Below, in pieces: positions 15,487-41,239 of a stretch of 44,809 bases of DNA. The DNA comes from an uncultured Ectothiorhodospiraceae bacterium (GTDB taxonomy: Bacteria > Pseudomonadota > Gammaproteobacteria > UBA9214), in the NCBI GenBank assembly GCA_947258515.1, contig CAMYIO010000035.1, positions 1 through 44,809 on the forward strand, written 5' to 3'. Positions within the stretch are counted from its first letter, which is position 1. Each line of letters opens with the position of its first letter. The position numbers and the translations under genes are program-made. The notes beneath the pieces were generated by a model that worked only from the letters and a program-made list of their open reading frames with translations, had not been told where the DNA came from and did no database searches.

Positions 15487-15511
15487 ATTGCCGAGTACCA
15501 GTTGTTATTTA

Positions 15512-15589
15512 ATTGCCACGGAAGCACACGGTATTACACGGAAATATTGCTTTTAGGGCAGTTATTCTTCCGTGTGCTTCCGTGGCAAT
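15512..15589. repeat. Palindromic intergenic repeat, 20-base perfect arms
   Basis: The arms ATTGCCACGGAAGCACACGG (15512-15531) and its exact reverse complement (15570-15589) enclose 38 bases. It lies in the 161-bp gap between the exonuclease stop and the rlmD start. Its core units (CCACGGAA, CACACGG) resemble those in the element at 33661-33736, so it looks like a dispersed repeat family. It could form a strong hairpin in RNA and act as a transcript end. Confidence 0.8.
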
Positions 15590-15647
15590 ACTCTTTATTT
15601 TAATCAGGCTGTAAGCGCATCAGGCGTCTGTAGGACACCGGGCCGGT

Positions 15648-16439: not shown

Positions 16440-17034
16440 CTATTTCTGCTTCCAGGCACCCTGCTTGTCCATGTACCACCAGCCAGCCGGGGCATTACTG
16501 ACCCAGCGTTTTGCAAAGGTACTGCGAATATCAGCTTCCCATTCGGGGTGTCCGTTGGCCTTGGCGATTTCCTTGTAGAGGGCACCGCGGTCTGCGTTTT
16601 CTTTTGCGACCAGGCCCTTGACAGCGTTCCTCTCCTGCAGTGGCACCAGTTTCTGGTCACGCATATCAAGCTCACCATCACCCGTCATGCCGATGGCGCC
16701 GGTTTTATAGTAGGGCGCCAGCTGCTTGTGGCGTTGTTCCATACTGGCTTGCAGCTGCTGAATGGCCGGGGTATTGACGGAAAGGTCCGCCTTGGCCTGT
16801 GCCGGACTGATAAACCAGTCCAGCAGGACATTACCTGCAGACAACGACTCGCTGACCGGCAATCGTGATTGCGGTTCGACCGGTTCGACCGCCGCGCCTG
16901 GCTCCGTAAACATCCTGGATGATGCGGTCTGCCGCCTTTACCGCGGCTTCTGCCGGAAAATATACATTTATCGTGACACAGGCTGCGACAAACAGCAGCA
17001 GGGTCAGTGCAACAGGAATCCGTACTAGTTTCAT
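16440..17034 (-). pseudogene. YnbE/YdbL-type lipoprotein (DUF1318), frameshifted
   Basis: Two overlapping frames together make one recognisable protein. The upstream frame (ATG at 17034, ribosome site GAGAGG; stop at 16831) encodes a lipoprotein signal ending LLLFVAAC, then VTINVYFPAEAAVKAADRII. The body, in another frame from about 16913 to 16440, carries the DUF1318 region (PQSRLPVSE, ANGHPEWEADIRSTFAKRW, GWWYMDKQGAWKQK). In relatives as I recall them these form a single chain, so joining needs one skipped base (or two restored) near 16905-16915. E. coli has separate YnbE and YdbL with YdbH, so a natural split is conceivable. The second frame has an ATG at 16913 but no ribosome site. Sequencing error, recent mutation or frameshifting are all possible. 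Confidence 0.7.
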
Positions 17035-17122
17035 CACTCGGCCTCTCTTGTCCATGAAGTTCATAAATCGTTTACTGTCATATCGTCGTTCGCGAAAGGG
17101 TACCACGTACCCTGACAGGGTA

Positions 17123-33660: not shown

Positions 33661-33736
33661 TAGCCACGAAAGTACACGAAAGAATTCCCAGGGAAGGTTT
33701 TATTTTTCCGTGGTTTCCGTGGATTCCGTGGCCATT
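33661..33736. repeat. CCACGGAA-type intergenic repeat
   Basis: The left half has GCCACGAAAGTACACGAAAG (33663-33682). The right half holds three 9-base units (TTTCCGTGG twice, then ATTCCGTGG; 33705-33731) ending CGTGGC. The halves are imperfect inverted copies. It lies between the MITE-like element and the acyP stop, and its units match those of the palindrome at 15512-15589. Together with the neighbouring element it fills the 328-bp gap between convergent nadB and acyP. Confidence 0.7.
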
Positions 33737-33748
33737 TCTTTTCTTTAG

Positions 33749-37765: not shown

Positions 37766-38474
37766 GTGTACCGACAGTCAGCTTTTGCCCGCCCCCGCAC
37801 TGTACTATTTGCGTTGCTGCTTGCCCTCGTACTGCTCTGTGGCTGTACCGCTCTACGGGGCCTATGCATCCGCGTTTGTTGAAGACGGGCAACGTCAACG
37901 TCGCCTCGCGGACATGTCATACAACTATGCGCACCGTGCGATTTGCCTGACGCACAAGGCCTTCTGCGTCGTCATCGACAAGCCGCTGGCCACCTTCAGG
38001 GAACGCTTGAATGATTTCGATACTGACGACGTCCCCGTGCTGTTCGGCTTCGCATCGGCCTGGGCAACCTGGATCCAGGCGAACAGCGAGGACTGGAATG
38101 CCACCATTCAGCTGCCAAAGGTCGCCGCACTCATGGAGCGCGTCATCGCGCTCGACGAGGGCTACGACCATGGCAACGCCCACGTCTACATGGGGGTGCT
38201 GAGCACGCAATTGCCGGCAGAAGTCGGTGGCAAGCCGGAGGTAGGCAGACAGCATTTTGAACGTGCCAACGAGTTGTCCGCCGGCCGCAACCTGATGGTG
38301 AATGTGCTATTCGCAAAGTACTATGCGCGGCTGGTATTCGACCAGCAATTACATGACAGCCTGCTGAACGCGGTCCTTGCCAGCGACACGGAGGCCCGGG
38401 ATCTGACACTCAGCAACGCACTGGCACAGCAACAGGCAAAAGAGCTACTGGAGGGCAGTAATGATTTTTTCTGA
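37766..38474 (+). pseudogene. TRAP-associated lipoprotein TatT, apparently damaged (internal deletion and frameshift)
   Basis: The N-terminal frame from GTG 37766 encodes a lipoprotein signal with lipobox LCGC (residues 24-27) and stops at TGA 37880-37882. The rest of TatT continues in another frame from about 37850 (LYGAYASAFVEDG) to the stop at 38474. In relatives as I recall them roughly 45-55 residues separate the lipobox cysteine from LYGAYA; here they are missing, so the join looks like an out-of-frame deletion. The body is otherwise intact (about 205 residues, including RAICLTHKAFC and PAEVGGKPEVGRQHFERA). Translation might restart, but no good start is seen. TatT is a periplasmic partner of DctP-type binding proteins. 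Confidence 0.72.
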
Positions 38475-39447
38475 GTGCATGCGTGGGGTTTCCCGACTGC
38501 TGGTCACGCTCACCGCGACACTGCTGTTGACACTGTCGGCAACAGCCGCCGCAACCACACTGAAGATTGCAACACTGGCACCGGATGGCACCTCGTGGAT
38601 GAAGATGATGCGCCAGGGGGCCGGGGAAATCAGTCAACGCACCGGGGGGCGGGTGAAACTGAAGTTCTATCCTGGCGGGGTCATGGGTAACACCGGTAGC
38701 GTATTGCAGAAGATGCGTATCGGCCAGTTGCAGGGTGGCGCATTTACCGGCACCGAACTTTCGACTGTGTATCCCGATGCCCAGCTCTACAGCATGCCGC
38801 TGGTGTTTCGCTCCTATGAGGAGGTCGACTATGTGCGTCAGCGCATGGATGACACCCTGATAAAGGGTCTGGCCGGCCATGACATGGTCGTACTCGGCAT
38901 CAGTAATGGCGGCTTTGCCTACATCATGAGCGAGAAACCATTGCGCACAATCGACGAGCTGAGGCGGCAAAAGGTGTGGATGCCGGAAGGTGACGTCCTG
39001 ACCGGGGCGATGTTTGAATCCCTGGGCGTCTCACCGATACCGTTGCCGGTCGCGGATGTCTATACCGGGCTGCAGACCGGACTGCTGGACACGGTGGCCG
39101 GCATCCCCACCGGTGTCATCGCCTTCCAGTGGTATACCAGCGTGACCTGCCTGACAGACGTTCCGGTCATGTTCCTGACCGGCATGCTGGCGATTGACAG
39201 CAAGGCCTTTGGCCGCATCAAGGCGGACGACCAGGAGATCGTCAGGGAGGTCATGGGGGCTGTCTTCAGAAAACTCGATGCAGTCAACCGGGCCGATAAC
39301 GAGTCGGCCCGCACGGCGTTACTGAACGAGGGCATCGAATTTATAAAGCCGGACACGGCAGCACAGGACAACTGGGAAAACATCGCCAGACAGGGGCATG
39401 AAAAGATGGTCAGACGCGCACGCTTTACGCCGGCACTGGTTCACTAG
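38461..39447 (+). CDS. TRAP transporter substrate-binding protein (DctP)
   Basis: This periplasmic binding protein of 328 residues has a signal peptide (cleavage near TAAA, residue 31). The DctP fold runs from LKIATLAPDGTSWMKMMRQGA through PGGVMGNTGSVLQKMRIGQLQGGAFTGTELS. The conserved substrate-contact region includes KVWMPEGDVLTGAMFESLGVSPIPLP. It is the type paired with TatT (TRAP-T). The ligand cannot be told from sequence. The ATG at 38461 has GGAGGG five bases upstream and overlaps the end of tatT, so coupling was the original arrangement. Confidence 0.93.
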   Translation: MIFSECMRGVSRLLVTLTATLLLTLSATAAATTLKIATLAPDGTSWMKMMRQGAGEISQRTGGRVKLKFYPGGVMGNTGSVLQKMRIGQLQGGAFTGTELSTVYPDAQLYSMPLVFRSYEEVDYVRQRMDDTLIKGLAGHDMVVLGISNGGFAYIMSEKPLRTIDELRRQKVWMPEGDVLTGAMFESLGVSPIPLPVADVYTGLQTGLLDTVAGIPTGVIAFQWYTSVTCLTDVPVMFLTGMLAIDSKAFGRIKADDQEIVREVMGAVFRKLDAVNRADNESARTALLNEGIEFIKPDTAAQDNWENIARQGHEKMVRRARFTPALVH

Positions 39448-39455
39448 CGTTGCGC

Positions 39456-39959
39456 GTGAGTAACCAGGGGGAAAGCGTATCACCGCCAGCAGCGCCATGG
39501 CTGCGCTGGCTGCATAATATAGAAGATGGCCTGCTGGCCCTGATGCTGTTCGCCATGGTGCTGCTGGCGAGCAGCCAGGTCATTATGCGCAACCTTCTTG
39601 ACAGCGGCTTCTCCTGGGGTGATCCCCTGTTGCGGCTGCTGGTGCTATGGCTGGGATTGATGGGCGCCATGGTGGCCACGCGGCTGGACCGGCACATTAC
39701 GGTGGATGCCCTGCTGCGCGTGCTGACACCCGGCCTGCAGCGTGGCGCCCGGATCATGACAAAGCTGGCGACGGCCGCGGTGTGTGCATTACTCGCCTAC
39801 CACTCGGCGCGTCTGGTCGCCATCGATTATGAATACCAAAACCTGCTGTTTGCACAGGTGCCGGCCTGGGCCGGTGACCTGATCCTGCCCTTCGCCTTTT
39901 CCGTGATGACGCTACGCATCGTGTTTCAGGCCGTCATGACGTTCAGGGGGCGCACATGA
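39456..39959 (+). CDS. TRAP transporter small membrane subunit (DctQ)
   Basis: This small integral membrane subunit of 167 residues has four hydrophobic segments (about 25-45, 60-80, 100-120 and 135-155). The motif LRLLVLWLGLMGAMVATRLDRHITVD is typical of DctQ. It links DctP to DctM. I use the GTG at 39456 (MSNQGES); a TTG two codons earlier is equally open, and neither has a strong ribosome site. Its stop overlaps the dctM start by four bases (ATGA). Confidence 0.92.
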   Translation: MSNQGESVSPPAAPWLRWLHNIEDGLLALMLFAMVLLASSQVIMRNLLDSGFSWGDPLLRLLVLWLGLMGAMVATRLDRHITVDALLRVLTPGLQRGARIMTKLATAAVCALLAYHSARLVAIDYEYQNLLFAQVPAWAGDLILPFAFSVMTLRIVFQAVMTFRGRT

Positions 39960-41239
39960 TTGCTTCAAGTCTCGTCCTGATCGGGCTGGCCTTGCTGGGT
40001 ATGCCGCTGTTTGCCGTCATTGCAGCCGGGGCCTTATACGGTTTCCATACCGAGGAGATCGATCTTGCAGCCGTCCCCATCGAAATCATGCGCCTCGCGA
40101 GCATCCCGGTGCTGCTTGCCATCCCGCTGTTTACCTTCGCCGGCTATCTGCTGGGAGAAAGCAATGCGCCGCAGCGGCTGGTACGCGTCACACACGCGTT
40201 TCTGGGCTGGTTCCCCGGCGGGCTCGCCGTGGTCGCCATCATGGCCTGCGCCCTGTTTACCGCCTTTACCGGCGCCTCCGGGGTGACCATTGTGGCACTG
40301 GGTGCGCTGCTCTATCCCGCCCTGAAAGAGGCCCGTTACCCGAACAATTTCAGTCTCGGCCTCATTACGAGTTCCGGCAGCCTCGGCATCTTGTTTGCAC
40401 CCTCGCTGCCGCTCATCCTCTACGCCGTCGTGACACAACAACTGTCACTGCAGCAACCCGTCAGTATTGACGACCTGTTTCTTGCCGGTATCTTCCCCGG
40501 CCTGCTGATGCTCGCGGTGCTCGCGGCATACTCGTTCGTGGTCCACAAGCGCAGTGGCGGCGCAGCGACGAACACACCCTCCAGCGTCAGGGAATGTGGT
40601 CAGGCCGTCAGGGAGGCGATATGGGAGTTGCCCTTCCCGTTCCTGCTACTGGGCAGCATCTACAGCGGCGTACTGGCCGTGTCCGAGGCGGCCGCGCTGA
40701 CCGTGGTTTACGTGTTTATCGTCGAGGTATTCATCTATCGCGAGATCCCGTTGCGCGAGCTGGCACGCATCACCCGCGAGTCCATGGTGATGGTCGGCGG
40801 CATCCTCATCATACTGGGCATGTCACTGGCCTCGACCAACTATATTATCGACATCGAACTGCCGGCGCGGCTGTTCGAAACCATCCGCGAACACATCGAC
40901 AGCCGCTGGGCGTTCCTGGCGTTATTGAACGTCTTTCTACTCGGTGTCGGTATGCTGCTGGATATCTTCTCCGCACTGGTGATACTGGTGCCGCTGCTGC
41001 TCCCGGTTGCCATCAGCTATGGCATCCACCCCGTGCACCTGGGTATCCTGTTCCTGGCAAATATGCAGCTCGGCTACTTCACGCCACCCATAGGCCTGAA
41101 CCTGTTCATCGCCAGCTATCGCTTCGAACGTCCGATCCTGGAGTTGTACCGGGCCACACTGCCGTTCTTCTTTCTGCTACTCGGCACTGTGCTCGTCATC
41201 ACCTACTGGCCCGAACTGAGTCTCTTTTTGGTTCAATAA
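39956..41239 (+). CDS. TRAP transporter large membrane subunit (DctM)
   Basis: This is the channel subunit of the TRAP transporter, driven by a sodium or proton gradient. The 427 residues contain about twelve membrane segments. Family landmarks include GWFPGGLAVVAIMACALFTAFTGASGVTIVALGALLYPAL near 75-115, SLGLITSSGSLGILFAPSLPLILYAVV, and FLANMQLGYFTPPIGLNLFIASYRF near the C-terminus. The ATG overlaps the dctQ stop. No gene for substrate metabolism adjoins the operon, so the substrate remains open. Confidence 0.95.
   Translation: MIASSLVLIGLALLGMPLFAVIAAGALYGFHTEEIDLAAVPIEIMRLASIPVLLAIPLFTFAGYLLGESNAPQRLVRVTHAFLGWFPGGLAVVAIMACALFTAFTGASGVTIVALGALLYPALKEARYPNNFSLGLITSSGSLGILFAPSLPLILYAVVTQQLSLQQPVSIDDLFLAGIFPGLLMLAVLAAYSFVVHKRSGGAATNTPSSVRECGQAVREAIWELPFPFLLLGSIYSGVLAVSEAAALTVVYVFIVEVFIYREIPLRELARITRESMVMVGGILIILGMSLASTNYIIDIELPARLFETIREHIDSRWAFLALLNVFLLGVGMLLDIFSALVILVPLLLPVAISYGIHPVHLGILFLANMQLGYFTPPIGLNLFIASYRFERPILELYRATLPFFFLLLGTVLVITYWPELSLFLVQ

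Follow-up and report, generated by a model that had tools for sequence, protein, structure and literature searches.

A gap in a tatT gene of an uncultured gammaproteobacterium is very probably an assembly joint

Results

A tatT gene printed in two frames

The window, the whole 44,809-bp stretch of DNA analyzed, is the complete contig C35 of a 3.59-Mb genome (G000; 269 contigs, completeness 97.93) and holds no N. On its forward strand lies a tatT gene printed in two frames. The first (37766–37882) reads VYRQSAFARPRTVLFALLLALVLLCGC from a GTG at 37766, the probable start, and carries a lipoprotein signal peptide with the lipobox LCGC; the codon of the lipobox Cys occupies 37844–37846, and the frame closes at a TGA (37880–37882). 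The second frame (37851–38474) begins LYGAYASAFVEDG... at 37851, in the next frame relative to the signal, and stops at 38474. It matches the Pfam TAtT profile PF16811 (E 4.7e-62; 210.1 bits, cut-off 26.5) over positions 38–263 of 263, without the N-terminal profile positions. The match confirms the assignment to TatT made in an earlier note on this DNA, and the coordinates agree with that note's observation that lipobox and body stand in separate frames. In the sequence as printed, the lipoprotein signal is not in frame with the body.

Directly downstream of tatT are Pfam matches to PF03480, PF04290, and PF06808, in dctP (38461–39447), dctQ (39450–39959), and dctM (39956–41239), all on the forward strand, and from the order TatT-DctP-DctQ-DctM the operon is read as a TPAT-type TRAP transporter. 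It shares with the TPAT of Treponema pallidum a tatT placed directly before dctP, dctQ, and dctM, a PF16811 body, and the presence of a lipoprotein signal. It differs in that the relatives are gammaproteobacterial and have separate dctQ and dctM, and in that 170 bp of tatT are absent from the assembly of the window. Three TatT subunits of T. pallidum are described as assembling into a complex that has a hydrophobic pore and binds the solute-binding protein (Deka et al. 2012, as told in PMC5812351), and according to the same account TPAT systems also occur in free-living proteobacteria (PMC5812351). The earlier note had taken DctP, DctQ, and DctM to be intact; all three are present, but the 3' end of dctP is 41–45 bp shorter than in the relatives. 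Because this shortening is terminal and its size depends on the relative compared, it is counted only as a possible second joint.

Comparison with related loci

The comparison with the closest loci that had been proposed was made with TatT orthologues from two genomes of the same genus, G003 (77% identical) and G004 (76%). In both, the gene is full length, and 58 residues (174 bp) separate the lipobox Cys from an LYxAYASAF motif, which appears as LYGAYAS in the window; here the interval is reduced to 4 bases (37847–37850). The net loss is 170 bp relative to either genome, which is not a multiple of 3, and the segment usual for TatT is absent, as the earlier note had said. A single open frame of at least 298 aa was found in 26 of 27 related TatT-family loci, and the remaining one (272 aa) ends at a contig end; a 28th locus, L029, is cut at a contig start and was left out of this count. 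The window's own genome departs from this pattern in both of its TatT genes. Given one long frame in 26 of the 27 loci, the separation of signal and body is judged to be an assembly error. A scan of named public genomes gave seven TatT loci, the closest (77% identity) in the metagenome-assembled genome Gammaproteobacteria bacterium ALSabin.191. Relocation of the missing piece was considered and rejected: a search of the window's own genome did not find the segment, the best match being the paralogue TatT2 (E 0.088) and the next having E 0.47.

The lineage-specific amino acid changes give no sign of released constraint. Over 207 codons of the TatT body, 15 changes are confined to the window and 19 to G003, and the corresponding counts (window/G003) are 7/10 for dctQ, 11/21 for dctM, and 22/19 for dctP. 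By these counts, the TatT body evolves no faster on the window lineage than on that of its sister, and relaxed selection on the operon was rejected.

Blunt losses in unrelated genes

A sample of the window's own genome (179,309 bases in eight stretches, the window included) was compared with G003 and G004, to which 143,038 and 133,611 bases aligned, respectively. Lesions of the same class as that in tatT recur in four other genes. The second TatT gene, TatT2, which precedes TRAP dctP, dctQ-like, and dctM genes, has lost 165 bp in frame; the gene for HU-beta has a blunt mid-gene loss of 72 bp; and that for RNase HII has lost 142 bp out of frame, all relative to both genomes. The lysyl-tRNA synthetase (LysRS) gene (G000:C13, about 12,900; L082:11901) lacks 83 bp relative to G004 only, since G003 gave no match there; this loss breaks the frame and splits the gene. 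Counting tatT itself, the 179,309 bases compared contain five such blunt losses within genes, about one per 36 kb. Losses relative to a single relative that lie outside long frames (for example, 383 bp at L081:16974) were left out of the count. Decay confined to TatT was rejected, as unrelated genes carry lesions too, and the losses show no preference for lipoproteins.

In the opposite direction, at thresholds of 21 bp and 15 bp for the two comparisons, no blunt mid-gene loss was found in G003 or G004 where the window's own genome has sequence. Sequence that is longer in the window's genome sits at gene ends or between genes except at L152:17606–17704, where G003 is 66 bp shorter and 31 unaligned bases remain, so that the difference is not blunt. 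Extreme base composition was rejected as the cause of the losses: the missing segments, as read in the relatives, have a G+C content of 0.53–0.64, close to the 0.50–0.62 of their flanks. Alignments of the joints, inspected by eye, showed shared sequence of 0–3 bp and no long shared sequence.

Several other features of the compared sequences were also recorded. At L036:7907 and L081:6386, G003 is about 160–170 bp longer directly past a gene end, probably owing to an intergenic repeat in that genome. At L081:9913, the ends of contigs G003:C21 and G003:C161 both lie no more than about 120 bp from the HU segment missing from the window's genome; assembly may be difficult at this site, which adjoins two tRNA-like genes. 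Positions 15506–15590 and 33663–33738 of the window hold intergenic hairpin repeats (CCACGGAAGC.../CCGTGG type) of a REP-like family, with similar intergenic copies in other contigs of the same genome and in G003 and G004.

A frame lesion in a second lipoprotein gene of the window, reported earlier, was also recovered. It most likely corresponds to the DUF1318 (YdbL-like) gene on the reverse strand at 16440–17106, which shows a frame change and, relative to both G003 and G004, a net loss of about 5 bp, a possible further joint.

The only lysyl-tRNA synthetase found is split in the assembly

A search of the window's genome with TIGR00499 found one LysRS gene, split into fragments covering profile positions 3–400 and 426–495, both named lysine--tRNA ligase by NCBIfam. 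The remaining matches are a 339-aa frame and a 609-aa frame, which from their sizes would be EpmA and AspRS. A cell whose only LysRS is broken is not viable. For the organism to live with the gene as printed, the unassembled part of the genome (completeness 97.93) would have to hold an intact copy, or a class I LysRS would have to exist. The occurrence of such losses in the only LysRS found, HU, RNase HII, and TatT2 points to the assembly as their source.

Gap sizing in the assembly

Two N-runs occur in a sample of 289,921 bases of the window's genome. One of them, a run of 34 N, lies inside a gene whose G003 protein resembles CtaG; the window's genome has 36 bases at this point, and G003 and G004 have 82 and 84 bp. 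The assembly thus bridges gaps and undersizes them. Blunt joints (5 in 179,309 bases) are commoner than N-runs (2 in 289,921 bases), an excess that simple N-gap scaffolding does not fully explain.

Discussion

The lesion in tatT is, in our view, very likely an assembly error, in which a contig joint lost about 170 bp of an ordinary gene. Two pieces, one ending just past the TatT lipobox and the other beginning at LYGAYAS, would have been joined end to end by the assembler or a scaffolder, and the roughly 170 bp between them dropped; a gap judged to be zero or negative would produce a joint resembling this lesion. The organism's own tatT is then most likely an ordinary in-frame lipoprotein gene, standing with dctP, dctQ, and dctM in a TPAT-type operon. 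The source reads would be expected to restore the full-length frame, the outcome that the earlier note had itself set against a damaged gene. Several points weigh against an assembly error: the window holds no N, and blunt joints outnumber N-runs; the LysRS loss rests on a single relative, G004, and an intact or class I LysRS may exist elsewhere; and the tatT and dctP lesions share one operon, as real decay might. Spurious pseudogenes arising from assembly are already known, and the case described by Cooley and Wright (2024; PMC11017572) is similar in that, from what is reported there, many frame lesions occur in one assembly and are not shared by close relatives; theirs are frameshifts and internal stops, whereas those found here are blunt losses of 72–170 bp in a draft genome.

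It is unlikely that a real, recent 170-bp deletion destroyed tatT in this strain, leaving a transporter that works without TatT or a cytoplasmic body made from an internal start. Such a deletion is what the printed sequence shows, the bases flanking the joint are otherwise clean, and dctP of the same operon is also short at its end; however, the same class of loss affects the only LysRS found, HU, and RNase HII, the TatT body lacks relaxed constraint, and of the related loci all are full length but one cut by a contig end. With TatT2 added to these losses, a damaged TatT in the organism itself, with a transporter that runs without it, is left unsupported. We consider it very unlikely that the population truly carries frequent blunt gene deletions of about 70–170 bp, the assembly recording true variants of a lineage in which deletions arise in an unusual way. 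Programmed frameshifting in the cell, by which the ribosome would shift +1 ahead of the stop at 37880 and read the two overlapping frames as one short lipoprotein TatT, is scarcely credible, as TatT of G003 and of G004 is encoded in a single frame that is longer by 58 residues, no related locus examined has a split frame, and the other lesions, some of which keep the frame, lie in unrelated genes.

An assembly joint most likely makes the tatT finding an ordinary one, a transporter gene that is whole in the organism and incomplete only in print. By rough extrapolation from five cases, one loss per approximately 36 kb would put the number of false gene lesions in the whole genome at roughly one hundred. 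Any gene loss or pseudogene claimed from this genome, including the lesions in TatT and in the YdbL-like gene, needs support from the reads before it is relied on.
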